A stretch of DNA of 64,000 bases from Acidimicrobiia bacterium. Lineage in GTDB: Bacteria > Actinomycetota > Acidimicrobiia > Spongiisociales > UBA11373. Numbering within the stretch: the first letter of the stretch is position 1; the number at the start of each line of letters is the position of its first letter. This document shows, one piece after another, positions 19,554 to 31,969 of the stretch. The position numbers and the translations under genes are program-made. Location of the stretch: NCBI GenBank assembly GCA_040878325.1, contig JBBDMM010000016.1, forward strand, positions 1 through 64,000, written 5' to 3'. Under the pieces are notes generated by a model, which saw nothing but the letters and a program-made list of their open reading frames with translations, was not told the origin of the DNA and did not search any database.

Positions 19554-20252
19554 GTGATTCCCGGGACGACCATCAACACCGCCGAATCGGCAGCGACTCA
19601 GAAGCTGTTGGAGGTGATGCGGCTGCGCGATCGTTCCCTCGCCGACCACGGACTGCGCGCAGGCCACATGGCGGCCGCCATCGCCGCCGAATTGGGCGGC
19701 ACCACCGACGAGGTGGACCGCGCCTACCTCGGCGGCCTTCTCCACGATGTCGGCAAACTCGGCATCCCTGAGGCCATCCTGTGGAAACCGGCCGGCCTCG
19801 ACTCCACCGAATGGAAGGTGGTGCGCAATCACCCGCAGGAGGGCCACCGCCTCGTCGTCGACCTCACCCATCGGGATGTGGCGGCGGCGGTGCTGTATCA
19901 CCACGAGCGGTTCGACGGCGAGGGTTACCCGCATCGGGTGGACCTGACCTCGATACCGATGCCGGTGCGCATCGTGCAGGTTGCCGATGCCTACGACGCG
20001 ATCACCTCCGATCGCCCCTACGCGCCAGCGCTGCCCCCATCGCTGGCGGTCGAAGAGATCAATCGCTGCGCCGGAAGCCAGTTCGATCCGGACGCGGCCC
20101 GGGGCTTGTCAAAGCTGCTGGAAGCGAGGCTCGATGGGGCGACGATCACCCTTCCCGGAGCGAGTGCCCCCCTGCCTGCCGACCCCTTCGACAAGATCCA
20201 AGAATCAAGAGTCAAGAATCAAGATTCGGTCAGCACACTCCTTGACTCTTGA
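19554..20252 (+). CDS. HD-GYP domain phosphohydrolase
   Basis: HDVGKLGIP (about residues 64-72) is the HD motif with the downstream KxGIP, HHERFDGEGYP (about 122-132) the HD-GYP signature with Gly-Glu-Gly-Tyr, and VADAYDAITSDRPY follows. The class hydrolyses cyclic di-GMP or other cyclic dinucleotides. No sensor domain is attached, so it is a bare catalytic unit of 232 aa. The GTG start has AGGAG upstream. The last 20 or so residues (from KIQES) are translated from the intergenic repeat that forms the terminator, so the original C-terminus was probably shorter. Confidence 0.88.
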   Translation: MIPGTTINTAESAATQKLLEVMRLRDRSLADHGLRAGHMAAAIAAELGGTTDEVDRAYLGGLLHDVGKLGIPEAILWKPAGLDSTEWKVVRNHPQEGHRLVVDLTHRDVAAAVLYHHERFDGEGYPHRVDLTSIPMPVRIVQVADAYDAITSDRPYAPALPPSLAVEEINRCAGSQFDPDAARGLSKLLEARLDGATITLPGASAPLPADPFDKIQESRVKNQDSVSTLLDS

Positions 20253-20259
20253 TTCTTGG
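20198..20259. terminator. Perfect 19-bp inverted repeat between convergent genes
   Basis: CCAAGAATCAAGAGTCAAG (20198-20216) and its exact reverse complement (20241-20259) are separated by 24 bp. The HD-GYP stop codon lies in the right arm. Further CTTGGCT and TTCTTGA units continue to 20297 beside the stop of the opposing nuclease gene. It probably ends transcription from both sides, though no U-tract is seen. Confidence 0.65.
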
Positions 20260-20295
20260 CTCTTGGCTCTTGGCTCTTGATTCTTGACCCTTGAC

Positions 20296-21081
20296 TCACT
20301 CCAACAGCTTCGTGGTCGCCTGGCCCTCGGCGCATTCGTCGAGCAGGGGACACCAGCGGCACCACGGGCCTGCCACCCGGTCGAGGCTGCGCCCGTCGGT
20401 GAAAGCCTCCCGCAGGACCGCGACCATATTCGCCGTCCTGGCTGCCGTCTCCTCGATCCCCGCCCGGGTGGGCACCTCGTCGACCCGCTCGCCGCTCCCT
20501 ACCGAGATGGCCTCGACCTTGCCCGGGATCTCTCCCCGGTCAAGCGCCCACAGCAGGGCGTAGAACGCCAGCTGAACGCCGGGGTCACCGAGGCCGCCCG
20601 TCTTCCAGTCCACTAGACGGACACCGGCGACACCTTCATCGAACACCGCATCGATCCTCCCCCGTAGGAGGACTCCTGCGGCAGGAGTGGCTTCGAGATC
20701 CACTTCCGCCCCCTCGAAACCCTCGGTGCCCATCGCCTTGAAGCGGTCGTAGAGCTGACCGACCTCTTCGATCACCCCGGCGAGGGCACTCGGCTTCAGC
20801 CCGAGCGCACTCAGCTTGGGGTTCATCCCGCCGCCGATCTCCTCGCGGCAGGCAGACTCGAACGCATCCGCCGCGATCGGGCCGCCGCTCAAGTGCCGGG
20901 CGAAGATGCGGTGGGCCAACCCGCCGACGAACGACACCCTCGACTCCGGGCCGTACACCCCTCGCATCCTCCCGGCGGCCTGTTCGGGACAGCGTTCGAA
21001 ACTCACGTAGGTCGTCGCCGAGATCACGAGGTCCTCGCCGGGAGGCACCTCCGGGAAACGAATGGGAGGGTCGAGAGCCAC
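20296..21081 (-). CDS. PD-(D/E)XK nuclease of RecB/Cas4 type with iron-sulfur cluster
   Basis: The nuclease core is GRIDAVFDEG and VRLVDWKTGG, giving the catalytic Asp, Asp and Lys of PD-(D/E)XK enzymes, followed by QLAFYALLWA. One Cys near the N-terminus (SFERCPEQ) and three near the C-terminus (CRWCPLLDEC) make the four-Cys pattern of the Cas4/AddB iron-sulfur cluster. Expected activity is exonuclease in DNA repair. No Cas genes are nearby, so a Cas4 role is unsupported. I choose the GTG at 21081 since TACCAT lies 8 nt upstream; an ATG at 21144 is the alternative. Confidence 0.85.
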   Translation of the reverse strand: MALDPPIRFPEVPPGEDLVISATTYVSFERCPEQAAGRMRGVYGPESRVSFVGGLAHRIFARHLSGGPIAADAFESACREEIGGGMNPKLSALGLKPSALAGVIEEVGQLYDRFKAMGTEGFEGAEVDLEATPAAGVLLRGRIDAVFDEGVAGVRLVDWKTGGLGDPGVQLAFYALLWALDRGEIPGKVEAISVGSGERVDEVPTRAGIEETAARTANMVAVLREAFTDGRSLDRVAGPWCRWCPLLDECAEGQATTKLLE

Positions 21082-28288: not shown

Positions 28289-28476
28289 GCCGATGGCTGG
28301 GAGGACGAACTCCAGGAGCCACCATCCCGGTCTCCACATTGAACGAACTCGCCCATGCCTGGTGGAGTGACCGGATCTCCCCGAACTGGCATCCCCGCAC
28401 GCCGGAACAAGGCCAGCGCATCCTCGACGAATTGGGCCTCGACTCCGAGTTCTGGCGCATTCGCAGGCCAGGGTGA
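28258..28476 (+). CDS. Alkylmercury lyase-family protein, C-terminal part after the UGA
   Basis: MNLFRSEEHIGRW and the ending LGLDSEFWRI match the C-terminal third of the same MerB-like family. It is in the same frame as the previous entry, separated only by UGA-Ser-Thr. There is no ribosome binding site or -10 box at useful distance before the ATG, so independent translation is doubtful; readthrough of 27808-28476 would give one 222-residue protein of family length. Confidence 0.6.
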   Translation: MNLFRSEEHIGRWLGGRTPGATIPVSTLNELAHAWWSDRISPNWHPRTPEQGQRILDELGLDSEFWRIRRPG

Positions 28477-28487
28477 GTAAACCCTCC

Positions 28488-28519
28488 CCTCGGCGAGCGT
28501 ACGTAAATGTCATCAGAGG
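28488..28519 (+). repeat. Array repeat, copy A
   Basis: Core CGAGCGTACGTAAATGTCAT between CCTCGG and CAGAGG arms. It lies 12 bp after the MerB-family stop and 42 bp before the hydrolase ATG. Confidence 0.8.
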
Positions 28520-28560
28520 CTGTGCCCCAATCGGGGGCGGCATCTGTCAGGATTGAGCCG

Positions 28561-29235
28561 ATGGAAGTTGAGCTCCGGGCGGGTCCCTTCTCCTATGTCG
28601 ACACCGGCGGCGGCAAGGAAGTGATTCTCCTTCTGCATGCCATGCGCAGGTCGTCCAGTGACTGGCAGCCAATCATCGAGCGGCTTGGGGACACGTACCG
28701 GATGATCGCCCTGGACTTGCGGGGGCACGGCGGCAGTAGCCGACCTGCCAGTTACTCGCTTGAGTTGATGCGAGATGACGTTCGGGACTTCGCCGATGCC
28801 CTCCGACTCTCCCGGTTCCACCTGATCGGACACTCCATGGGAGCCACGGTCGCAATTCTGTTCGCCGAACGATGGCCGAGCCGACTTGACCGCCTGGTGC
28901 TCGAAGACACCCCGCCCCCCTCAGGTCGAGAGCAGGTTTCGGCGCCACCTCCCGAGGCTCCCGAACCAGTGCTGTTCGACTGGGCGGTACTCGGCCCGAT
29001 CATCCACCAACTCAACAACCCAGACCCTGGATGGTGGACCGACCTCCCCAACATCACCGCCCCCACACTCGTCGTCGGAGGCGGCAGCGACAGCTTCATC
29101 GATCAGGGAGAGTTGGCGGACATGGTGAGTCGGATCCCGGACGCACGACTTGTAACGATCGAGGCCGGCCACCATGTGCACAGCACCAAGCCTGACGAGT
29201 TCGCATCAGCCGTCTACGACTTTCTCACCGCGTAG
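28561..29235 (+). CDS. Alpha/beta-hydrolase
   Basis: VILLLHAMRRSSSDW forms the oxyanion-hole strand, DLRGHGGSS is the loop before helix A, GHSMGAT carries the nucleophile Ser, and the charge-relay Asp and His are near VVGGGSDSF and EAGHHVHS. Length is 224 aa from the ATG at 28561. A frame-matched ATG at 28507 lies inside repeat A and I regard it as part of the repeat. The substrate is unknown; the fold includes esterases and dehalogenases. It is the first gene of the repeat-bounded array. Confidence 0.85.
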   Translation: MEVELRAGPFSYVDTGGGKEVILLLHAMRRSSSDWQPIIERLGDTYRMIALDLRGHGGSSRPASYSLELMRDDVRDFADALRLSRFHLIGHSMGATVAILFAERWPSRLDRLVLEDTPPPSGREQVSAPPPEAPEPVLFDWAVLGPIIHQLNNPDPGWWTDLPNITAPTLVVGGGSDSFIDQGELADMVSRIPDARLVTIEAGHHVHSTKPDEFASAVYDFLTA

Positions 29236-29245
29236 TGCCCTCGGA

Positions 29246-29305
29246 GCAAAAGTCGGCCCCGTCGGCCACCGTACGTAAAGGTCATCCGAGATCGGGGTCC
29301 TTTGC
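29246..29305 (+). repeat. Array repeat, copy B, with extended imperfect hairpin
   Basis: The core is ACCGTACGTAAAGGTCATCC. GCAAA (29246-29250) pairs with TTTGC (29301-29305), CCCC with GGGG, TCGG with CCGA and ACC with GGT, so the whole 60 bp can fold with a loop of GTACGTAAA. Confidence 0.8.
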
Positions 29306-29351
29306 GGCGACACAGGACCTTGACCCGTGGTGTCGACCAGAATCACGCAGG

Positions 29352-30239
29352 ATGAACGAAGAGCAGTTGGAGAGGCTGCGAGTCGGGAAGGGCTTCATCG
29401 CCGCGCTTGATCAGAGCGGCGGGAGCACACCCGGCGCGCTGGAACACTACGGGATAGCTGAGGCCGGCTTCCCCACCGAGGATGACATGTTCGATCTCAT
29501 CCACGAGATGCGAACTCGCATCATCACGAGTCGGAGCTTCACAGGTGATCGGATCATCGGGGTGATCCTGTTCGAGAGGACAATGGACAGCGAGATCGCT
29601 GGCCGCGCGTCGGCGGAGTACCTCTGGTCGGTCAAGGGTGTCGTTCCGTTCCTCAAAGTCGATCGAGGCCTCGCGGATATGGCCGACGGCAGCCGCCGGA
29701 TGAACCCGATACCGGACCTCGGGTCGCTCCTCGAGCGTGCCACGGAGAAGGGCGTGTTTGGTACCAAGATGCGTTCGCTGGTCAGGCTTGCCGACCCCGG
29801 GGGGGTAAATGCGGTCGTCGACCAGCAAGTCGAGATCGGTTGTCGCATACTCGATGCCGGCCTGATCCCCATCCTCGAACCGGAAGTCGACATAGACAGC
29901 CCACAGAAGTCGGAGGTAGAACTCCTGCTGAAGCACGCTCTGCTGTCGCGTCTCGACGAGCTCTCGTCCAGCCAGTCGGTGATCCTCAAACTCACGCTGC
30001 CCGAGGAGGCCGACCTCTATCGGAGTCTCGTAGAGCACCCGCGAGTCCTCCGGGTGGCAGCCTTGTCGGGAGGGTTTTCACGGGACGAAGCCAATGCACG
30101 TCTTGCGAGCAACAGTGGCGTCGTGGCGAGCTTCTCACGAGCATTCACCGAGGGCCTCCGCTTCGACCAGTCCGACAGTGAGTTCGACGCTGCCCTCGAA
30201 GCGTCCGTGGAGTCGATCTACGAGGCCTCGATCACGTAG
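29352..30239 (+). CDS. Fructose-bisphosphate aldolase class I
   Basis: GKGFIAALDQSGGSTPGALE is the hallmark opening of the bacterial class I aldolases of the FdaB type. FLKVDRGL and FGTKMRS carry active-site lysines and VILKLTLPEE the Schiff-base lysine region. It cleaves fructose 1,6-bisphosphate to triose phosphates in the cytoplasm. Length 295 aa is normal. The ATG is at 29352; the longer frame from 29235 runs through repeat B. A core-metabolism gene in a repeat-bounded array is unexpected, and another aldolase probably exists elsewhere in the genome. Confidence 0.9.
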   Translation: MNEEQLERLRVGKGFIAALDQSGGSTPGALEHYGIAEAGFPTEDDMFDLIHEMRTRIITSRSFTGDRIIGVILFERTMDSEIAGRASAEYLWSVKGVVPFLKVDRGLADMADGSRRMNPIPDLGSLLERATEKGVFGTKMRSLVRLADPGGVNAVVDQQVEIGCRILDAGLIPILEPEVDIDSPQKSEVELLLKHALLSRLDELSSSQSVILKLTLPEEADLYRSLVEHPRVLRVAALSGGFSRDEANARLASNSGVVASFSRAFTEGLRFDQSDSEFDAALEASVESIYEASIT

Positions 30240-30261
30240 GCGACCCCTGCCCCCAGGCCAG

Positions 30262-30311
30262 GACCGTCCCCTCGGCCAGGGTGCGGGAATGTCACCCGAG
30301 AGGGTGTCGTG
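30262..30311 (+). repeat. Array repeat, copy C
   Basis: The core CCAGGGTGCGGGAATGTCAC lies between CTCGG and CCGAG, with GTG paired to CAC around the loop CGGGAATGT; CCC before and GGG after lengthen the stem. It lies between the convergent ends of the aldolase and the next gene. Confidence 0.8.
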
Positions 30312-30313
30312 AG

Positions 30314-30541
30314 TCAGTAGCTGACCGAGGCATCACGCACGATTGCTACAACAACCAGGACCACGAGCGCGTTGGCGGCTGCCAGCGCAAGAGAGCTGAG
30401 AACGCCTGCGAACGAGTCAACCGAACCCTGAGCGAGAACGATTGCGGCCCACGCGAGAGTGACTCCGACGCCGACCAACACCAAGCGTCGTGGGAGCGCG
30501 ATCCCTCCGACCAATGCCAGCAGCAAGACGGTGGGTATCAC
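30314..30541 (-). CDS. Small two-helix membrane protein
   Basis: The 75 residues are almost wholly hydrophobic: helices at about 4-36 (with a PRR break near 17) and 44-70, ending RDASVSY. AAAGGAAG lies 4 nt before the GTG at 30541. No family recognised. It is the third gene of the array and is transcribed against the first two. Confidence 0.65.
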   Translation of the reverse strand: MIPTVLLLALVGGIALPRRLVLVGVGVTLAWAAIVLAQGSVDSFAGVLSSLALAAANALVVLVVVAIVRDASVSY

Positions 30542-30590
30542 GCGGCTTCCTTTCCGTACTTCAAGGTACGCCTACTCGGCTCATGGGTGA

Positions 30591-30640
30591 AGTCGGCGCA
30601 CTCAGCCAGCGTGCGGAAATGTCATCAGAAGTCGGCGACT
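30591..30640 (+). repeat. Array repeat, copy D
   Basis: The core CCAGCGTGCGGAAATGTCAT is flanked by AGTCGGCGCACTCAG and CAGAAGTCGGCGACT, which pair at about 12 of 15 positions. The flanks differ from those of the other copies yet still pair. Confidence 0.8.
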
Positions 30641-31121
30641 ATCTGAACTCCCCGGACAGAAGCATCTTCACGGAGCGCCCATCTCGCGAGATCCCCCGGA
30701 ATCCGAAGCGCTCGTAGAGACGGACCGCGGGGTTCCTCTCATCGACCGAGAGACTGCACCGTTCTAACCCGTCCAGAAGCCGTACAAGTAGATCGCTCCC
30801 AACGCCCTGGTTACGGTGATCGGGAATGACCGCGATCGAGAGTTCTGGGGTGGAGTCGTCAATGAAGCCGTAGCCCGGCGCGGAATTGTCGAACAGTCGA
30901 ACCCAGGCCGCACCGATGGCTGTGCCCGAGGCATCCTCGGCGATAACTCCCCGATCACCAGTACGAAGCCCGAAGTCACGGTGATAGGGGGCCAAGTCCG
31001 GTTGATCCAAGACATCTCTCGGGAATGGCTGCATGCCAGACGGCACATACAGCGCCTCATACAGCATCTCGATCAGGAATGGCTCATCACCTGGTGAGGC
31101 GGGGCGAATCGTGTGGGCCAT
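30639..31121 (-). CDS. GNAT-family N-acetyltransferase
   Basis: HTIRPASPGDEPFLIEML is the usual N-terminal strand-helix, LSIAVIPDHRNQGVGSDLL the acetyl-CoA-binding motif A (R-N-Q-G-V-G), and DERNPAVRLYERFGFRGI motif B. Length is 160 aa. I choose the ATG at 31121 because TACGCT lies 6 nt upstream; ATGs or GTGs further out fall inside repeat E. The acceptor is unknown. Confidence 0.85.
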   Translation of the reverse strand: MAHTIRPASPGDEPFLIEMLYEALYVPSGMQPFPRDVLDQPDLAPYHRDFGLRTGDRGVIAEDASGTAIGAAWVRLFDNSAPGYGFIDDSTPELSIAVIPDHRNQGVGSDLLVRLLDGLERCSLSVDERNPAVRLYERFGFRGISRDGRSVKMLLSGEFR

Positions 31122-31127
31122 TGCTGC

Positions 31128-31133
31128 AGCGTA
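31128..31133 (-). promoter_or_regulatory. -10 box of the array GNAT gene
   Basis: TACGCT on the minus strand, 6 nt before the ATG at 31121; this array gene thus carries its own promoter. Confidence 0.5.
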
Positions 31134-31155
31134 GAGAAACGAGGTGGTGTTCATT

Positions 31156-31196
31156 ACCACCCTCCGCCAGCGTGCGGGAATGTCACCCGAGGTGGT
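31156..31196 (+). repeat. Array repeat, copy E
   Basis: The core CCAGCGTGCGGGAATGTCAC is flanked by ACCACC (31156-31161) and GGTGGT (31191-31196). In addition GAGGTGGTGTTCA occurs as a direct repeat at 31141-31153 and 31189-31201, around the core. Confidence 0.8.
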
Positions 31197-31198
31197 GT

Positions 31199-31849
31199 TC
31201 ACTCGTCGAGGAGAGTCGTGACCTGAGGAGACTTGACGAGGCACTGGCCGACGGCGAGCAGCTCGAAGTAGACAGGATTTTTCCCAACCAGGCTTGCCCT
31301 AGTGGTCAGCGAGTCGAGGGCAACGAAAGCTGCTTCCCTGGCCTTGGTGTCGGTCCTGTGAGGATCCCAATGGACACCGCCCATCTTGTTCGAAATGTAC
31401 TGAATCAGGTGCTGGCGCGAGATTCGACTGCCATCAACGACAGCGCATGGCTCGCGCAGGTATCGAGTGAGGGCCCAGGTCACCTCGGGTGGTCCGCGAT
31501 GTGAAGCATGGCGGCGGCGGATCAGTTCCGCGGGCATGACCCCGGCGTACCGGAGAACGGGCCCCACCTCCGCGCCGCCGTGTGTCGCCCCGCCAGCGAC
31601 AGCAAACTGCACCGCCTTCATGGCAAGGCCATCAAGGAACCTGTCCAGATCGGGTGAAGTCACCATGACGGGCCCCCGGAGCCCGAGCTCGGAGCGATAC
31701 CGATTCAGCAGCCCCCCATCATCGATCATGAGGCGTCTCAGTACGGTGCTGTCACGGCGGAGGAAGTCGTCGTCAACCTCCCGAAGAGTCCACGTCGAGC
31801 GCAGATAGCGAAGGTCTGCAACGACTTGGCGAGCGACTTCTGACTCCAC
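31199..31849 (-). CDS. Protein of unknown function, 216 aa
   Basis: A soluble protein with no signal or membrane helix. Features worth searching are RLMIDDGGLLNRY, VTWALTRYLREPCAVV and a C-terminal block HLIQYISNKMGGVHWDPHR. I do not recognise a family with a known role. The GTG start has TAGCCT 6 nt upstream. It is the last gene of the repeat-bounded array, next to the tRNA locus. Confidence 0.7.
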   Translation of the reverse strand: MESEVARQVVADLRYLRSTWTLREVDDDFLRRDSTVLRRLMIDDGGLLNRYRSELGLRGPVMVTSPDLDRFLDGLAMKAVQFAVAGGATHGGAEVGPVLRYAGVMPAELIRRRHASHRGPPEVTWALTRYLREPCAVVDGSRISRQHLIQYISNKMGGVHWDPHRTDTKAREAAFVALDSLTTRASLVGKNPVYFELLAVGQCLVKSPQVTTLLDE

Positions 31850-31855
31850 ATGGTC

Positions 31856-31861
31856 AGGCTA
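31856..31861 (-). promoter_or_regulatory. -10 box of the 216-aa gene
   Basis: TAGCCT on the minus strand, 6 nt before the GTG at 31849. Confidence 0.5.
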
Positions 31862-31898
31862 TCGGAGCCGACTCCTGCTCGGGTGACCGGCATCCCTG

Positions 31899-31920
31899 TC
31901 AGCCAGCGTGACCTCATCCG
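31899..31920 (+). repeat. Array repeat, possible degenerate copy F
   Basis: TCAGCCAGCGTG followed by ACC and TCATCCG resembles copies B and D with part of the loop deleted. It would close the array on the right. Confidence 0.5.
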
Positions 31921-31969
31921 TACACCACGAGGCTGAACGCGACACTGGCGGCGATGTTTCGACATGGGT

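Follow-up and report, generated by a model that had tools for sequence, protein, structure and literature searches.

A row of single genes between co-oriented sites

The window, by which we mean the whole 64,000-nucleotide stretch of DNA that was analysed, holds a genuine array of five same-orientation repeats between unrelated genes. In the site nomenclature developed below, the array begins on the left with the attL-type (B·P') site A (28472..28519, core TC at 28490-28491), followed by a gene for a 224-aa alpha/beta hydrolase (cassette 1, 28561..29235, + strand), site B (29244..29291, core TC at 29262-29263) and a gene for a 295-aa member of the class I fructose-bisphosphate aldolase family (cassette 2, 29352..30239, + strand). 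Site C (30254..30301, core TC at 30272-30273) separates the aldolase gene from a 75-aa ORF without a Pfam match (cassette 3, 30314..30541, - strand), site D (30584..30631, core TC at 30602-30603) precedes a gene for a 171-aa GNAT acetyltransferase (cassette 4, 30639..31154, - strand), and site E (31145..31192, core TC at 31163-31164) precedes the gene for a 216-aa protein that also lacks a Pfam match (cassette 5, 31199..31849, - strand). Sites B to E are of the attL type like A, and the array closes with an attB-type (B·B') terminal site, F (31880..31924, + strand, core TC at 31899-31900). Copies A to E of the original prediction were re-found where it had placed them, all on the + strand, and its assignment of one gene to each interval from A to F (hydrolase, aldolase, 75-aa ORF, GNAT, 216-aa protein) holds. 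Its description of F as a degenerate copy needs revision: F keeps the TC core and the left GTGAC, and its right half is a different one (B').

The repeat occurs about 22-25 times in the source genome (2.2 Mb), in co-oriented clusters on contigs C6, C10, C16 and C18, and is also present in 13 of the 13 other family genomes searched; practically no genomes from other families of the order carry it, and it was hardly found elsewhere in the class. A 36-nt site profile gave 131 matches in 563 kb of family loci and none in the reversed control. At these loci neighbouring sites are co-oriented 80:4 (80/84), no site lies within a predicted gene (0/115) despite 81% coding DNA, and a single gene occupies 50 of the 80 inter-site intervals, with 15 of the 80 lacking any predicted gene. 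Gene direction relative to the sites is random at the family loci (45:44), in agreement with the mixed gene orientation described earlier for the window array. Scattered copies without a one-gene-per-repeat pattern, which had been proposed as the outcome that would argue against a cassette role, are not what was found. The many loci that carry arrays share no host gene, and a conserved target of the rlmH or ssrA type is lacking. A common tRNA target was rejected as well, since tRNAs adjoin only a few arrays. A gene-less 52-bp unit lies between two sites three times in the source genome (L031:5957-6044, L031:10972-11059 and L032:8013-8100).

Large serine recombinases at the right end of related arrays

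The integron integrase IntI is absent from the source genome, whose PF00589 tyrosine recombinases are of the XerC/XerD type only. The genome does encode two related large serine recombinases (LSRs), one intact and one broken, each at an array's right end and on the opposite strand; this placement is seen in G000 (the source genome) on C10 and C6, in G004, in G011 on C13 and C75, and in G010. Array LSRs comprise resolvase, recombinase and zinc-ribbon domains. In the source genome and the family, such a three-domain LSR marks the element end at other arrays but not at that of the window, and three of the five site clusters in the source genome, the window's included, have no adjoining LSR. No LSR relative was detected in site-bearing family genomes such as G013, G009 and G008, of which G013 is only 76% complete. 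Beside the LSR, and convergent with it, lie a small ORF of 56-74 aa and a REP_ORF2-G2P/rolling-circle Rep gene, and the three genes occur together in many Actinomycetota as well as in Chloroflexota. The product of the small ORF is a candidate directionality factor (RDF). Array-bearing LSRs mostly fall in one supported clade of the LSR tree, with the Dormibacterota LSR elsewhere, and an LSR search of plasmid and viral collections returned distant LSRs only. Two minor observations concern the module itself: the LSR at the source genome's largest array is split into two overlapping frames (L031:14011-15449, on C6), the C10 copy (136520-137923) being intact, and the 56-74 aa protein whose gene separates Rep from LSR is conserved between phyla (L032:12370-12537, L211:10785-10964, L336:5406-5627).

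Hybrid attachment sites

Directly upstream of the array LSR genes, at the border with neighbouring chromosomal genes, lies an attR-type site that shares the array core and joins a P arm, ACATTAACGCAC, on the left to a B' half (e.g. GCGATCACATC) on the right. The P arm repeats the array's right half P', GTGCGGGAATGT, in inverted form, as B' does the array's left half B, GTGATCGC. Because P inverts P' and B' inverts B, the array sites can be assigned as attL (B·P') and the LSR-end site as attR (P·B'); the array repeats, in other words, look like the attL sites of an LSR. Matches to the P half are almost confined to sites upstream of LSR genes, and there are almost no internal P or B' remnants in the arrays. 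Where an array has no LSR, its last site is B·B' (attB-like), lying to the right of the array and in the same orientation. Eight independent cases were found in the family (L071, L080, L091, L093, L094, L095, L096 and L102), and a Chloroflexota genome has three LSR-less arrays that end in this way; the L105 array ends in P·B' with no LSR detected, and in some contig-limited arrays a terminal site was not seen. Conservation of the B half among sites is weak. In the window, the B' half of site F is the best B' match among 16,481 TC/TG positions, and the low score of its B half results from a 1-bp shift of GTGAC.

In a structure-based model of LSRs, the zinc-ribbon motif of attB lies 5 bp nearer to the core than that of attP (PMC3783163). 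Of 20 terminal B' halves, 16 have the zinc-ribbon-type motif at this 5-bp-closer position, the remaining 4 having offsets other than -5, and among scoring left B halves the 5-bp-closer motif occurs in 14 where 0.6 are expected. The sites combine hybrid attL/attR halves that share a core with the 5-bp shift between attB and attP. The central dinucleotide also follows the recombinase: it is TC in both the LSR attR and the array in G000, G004, G011 and G040, and TG in both in G010, G041, G042 and the Thermoleophilia genome, so that partner sites are identical in eight genomes, G007 excepted. The G007 exception (L211:8744-13379) is an LSR-Rep locus with sites in atypical orientation and an attR core of TG versus TC in the G007 arrays; the matching gap in G007 (M3 peptidase/oxidoreductase) contains no attB. 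G012 has arrays with both TC and TG cores. An array site in G013 (L100:3651-3700) has a P-like left half, GTAACGCATAC, and may be an attP-like (P·P') site lying within an array.

Cassettes recur as units

The hydrolase cassette of the window recurs site to site in G003 (L073; 801 versus 808 bp), and the hydrolase gene also forms the final cassette of an array in G013 (L095), before its B·B' site. A homologue of the window's GNAT cassette lies in G007 (L067), oriented alike relative to its site, a two-gene cassette is common to G007 and G004 over 921 bp, and another cassette recurs in G012. Recurring cassettes keep their orientation to the site, their neighbours differ, and their homology fades within the site at both ends. 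The gltX-tRNA-Gln-tRNA-Glu locus that adjoins the window array is site-free in most relatives, G013 alone having one site there.

Arrays in other phyla

LSR relatives served as a lead to arrays outside the home family. A Chloroflexota genome (UBA5189) has 70 sites, every one with a TC core. Its neighbouring sites are co-oriented in 57 of 57 cases, one gene lies in 42 of the 57 intervals, genes run against the site direction 51:7, and an LSR-Rep module adjoins a 17-site array. TG is the core of most sites in the Actinomycetota genome palsa_556 and in a Dormibacterota genome, where co-orientation is looser (8:4), and a two-site array is found in a Thermoleophilia genome. With reversed profiles, the Chloroflexota, palsa_556 and Dormibacterota genomes gave no matches, and the LSR attR core equals the array core in these three and in the Thermoleophilia genome. 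No arrays were found by site profile beside Mycobacterium and Arthrobacter LSRs, and the related LSRs of these two and of others (L239, L240, L241 and L242-L272) lack such sites. An inverted-P search beside other LSR relatives (Mycobacterium, Arthrobacter and others) gave noisy matches, among which the Thermoleophilia locus stood out. At Arthrobacter-type loci the far attR half reads as the HNH motif of an endonuclease gene, which recalls targets of the phiRv1 type.

A model for array growth

We consider it very probable that an LSR acting on attL-type sites built the window array as a row of gene cassettes resembling an integron. This supports the first of the three options originally offered, that of a cassette system whose recombinase was unknown, with an LSR now as the likely enzyme. 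Each repeat would be a double-stranded attL made of a B half, a 2-bp core and a P' half, and each cassette would therefore start with P' and end with B. The carrier element, intact elsewhere in the source genome, would comprise the LSR, the rolling-circle Rep and the small protein, and would sit at the array's right end between the last attL and an attR (P, core and B') just upstream of the LSR gene. Once excised, the circle would carry attP (P·P'), together with cassettes if an inner attL had been used. Entry would proceed by recombination between the attP of the circle and the terminal attB of an array; exit would pair attR with the nearest attL, leaving cassettes behind and restoring attB. 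Any cassettes to the left of the attL used would remain in the chromosome. The window array would then represent the post-exit state, with five cassettes followed by attB, the B·B' arrangement of site F being what the departure of an LSR element from the array end should leave. LSR pairings other than attP with attB (or attL with attR plus a phage factor) do not recombine (PMC3783163), and the proposed cycle would use canonical LSR reactions only. The canonical attL-attR rules do not account for excision of single cassettes. The first B half of a new gene may perhaps come from aberrant excision via a pseudo-site. We infer this origin of new cassettes, catalysis by the array LSR and the order of the steps from sequence comparison. 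The model predicts attP circles, attB scars and compatibility groups defined by the core dinucleotide.

Comparison with known systems

Integrons are the textbook case of one-at-a-time gene collecting, and they depend on a single family of tyrosine recombinases and on sites that fold as single strands. The arrays resemble them in that sites are co-oriented, units hold roughly one small gene each and a recombinase gene lies at one end, and also in recombinase-less (CALIN-like) arrays, tens of cassettes per genome and a cargo of GNAT, APH and AadA-like genes. They differ in that the recombinase is a serine rather than a tyrosine enzyme, the sites are double-stranded and attL-type with a 2-bp core rather than folded attC sites, the terminal site is attR or attB, and gene orientation is random in the home family. 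Co-oriented one-gene arrays are present (80:4 and 57:0), whereas IntI and folded attC sites with RYYYAAC/GTTRRRY ends are not; the absence of such ends, remarked upon earlier for the window, extends to the site consensus. The arrays work like an integron yet, by IntI and attC, do not belong among integrons.

By family, the closest published relatives are tandem LSR islands such as SCC and the Dehalococcoides ssrA islands, together with CIME accretion. The SCC and SCCmec elements (CcrAB, CcrC) are large and reside at rlmH/orfX, and SCC is not known to form arrays of single-gene units. Phage-type LSRs (phiRv1, A118, TP901-1) share the domain make-up, the attP/attB geometry and the 5-bp zinc-ribbon shift, but they insert singly into a host target and are not known to form cassette arrays. 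SCC grows by LSR-driven tandem accretion at one attachment site, and the Dehalococcoides ssrA islands are multi-gene, anchored in ssrA and associated with the DsiB serine recombinase, their six-gene module containing two serine recombinases (PMC3146451). The ssrA islands also consist of tandem, co-oriented units bounded by direct repeats, with a serine recombinase module at one edge and module-less units, whereas the arrays have single-gene units, B·P' sites of about 46 bp and a module of LSR, small ORF and Rep. CIMEs and the related ICEs and IMEs likewise include units with att sites and without a recombinase that are mobilised in cis by a neighbour, but they are mostly large, decayed conjugative or mobilizable elements and form no long single-gene arrays (PMC5704250). 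Relative to tandem islands and CIMEs as a whole, the arrays stand out in that they consist of many single-gene units, have a free attB at the end, share no host target and are associated with a Rep module. LSR-built single-gene arrays were not described in the literature searched, which did not extend to bioRxiv or most subscription journals.

Other readings of the arrays

These relatives raise the possibility, which we regard as unlikely though worth serious thought, that the arrays are the remains of tandem LSR islands of the SCC/CIME type, the units being shrunken separate elements rather than traded cassettes. SCC and the Dehalococcoides ssrA islands (PMC3146451), like CIMEs (PMC5704250), are known to accrete in tandem and to lose the recombinase, and in G010 a gene known as a G000 cassette sits directly between P' and the Rep-LSR module. 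However, most units contain a single gene, a genome may hold as many as 70 sites, inner P or B' remnants are almost absent, and homologous cassettes recur site to site at nearly equal length.

The other two options of the original prediction, mobile hairpins (REP/MITE-like) between unrelated genes and terminators or other regulatory sites, now appear highly improbable, although the sites are strictly intergenic and their core is flanked by CTCGG and CCGAG. It had been claimed that the structure is kept while the stem bases change. When pairing in the proposed stem was compared between 80 aligned sites and shuffled controls, 61.3% of cells paired versus 62.3 +/- 1.0% after shuffling (n=80 sites); double changes in stem columns exceeded the shuffled control by no measure in the same 80 sites, and covariation was also absent by another route. 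The array repeats are not hairpins. There is no credible Rfam match at the repeats, so a hairpin or RNA reading was discarded on this ground together with the lack of covariation, and the conserved hairpin of REP/RAYT elements is missing. Further arguments against these options are that sites are strictly co-oriented while gene orientation is random, that terminal sites are of another type, and that gene and site move together as units that recur between genomes.

More improbable still is the action of XerC/XerD on dif-like sites in the manner of pdif modules, for although XerC and XerD are the sole tyrosine recombinases present and ATGTCA is common to the array site and the family's dif, GCCCATAATCCACGTTATGTCA, the arm spacing differs from the 11-6-11 of dif and Xer is everywhere while arrays are patchy. 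We dropped this reading once attR sites, the LSR-type dyad partners, had been found at the LSR end; the 5-bp shift also speaks against it, as does the way the cores follow the LSR. The likely dif of the source lineage is GCCCATAATCCACGTTATGTAA (genome C12:10051-10072), a single copy widely conserved in the order.

Implications

Returning to the LSR-built cassette array, we lean somewhat towards a broader proposal: that these loci constitute a "serine integron". Such a platform, present in Actinomycetota, Chloroflexota and Dormibacterota, would be dedicated to gene capture; its LSR-Rep element would collect cassettes of one gene each, and deposit them, at a terminal attB, and its origin would be independent of tyrosine-recombinase integrons. 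If true, it would be a second bacterial gene-collecting platform, run by an unrelated enzyme on ordinary double-stranded sites, and gene collecting would have evolved more than once. The cassettes include relatives of aminoglycoside-modifying enzymes (AadA-like and APH), and the arrays may therefore be an unmonitored reservoir of such genes. AadA/APH-type cargo is often seen in integrons. Here, cassettes for a protein with an AadA C-terminal domain (Chloroflexota) and for phosphotransferases of the APH type (Chloroflexota and the home family) were noted at L333:1825-2538, L333:6576-7667 and L081:8005-8904, and further cargo comprises a reverse transcriptase, Fic and SUKH-type proteins (L067:14486-16087; L031:6324-7511; L288:14075-14431 and 19791-20372).
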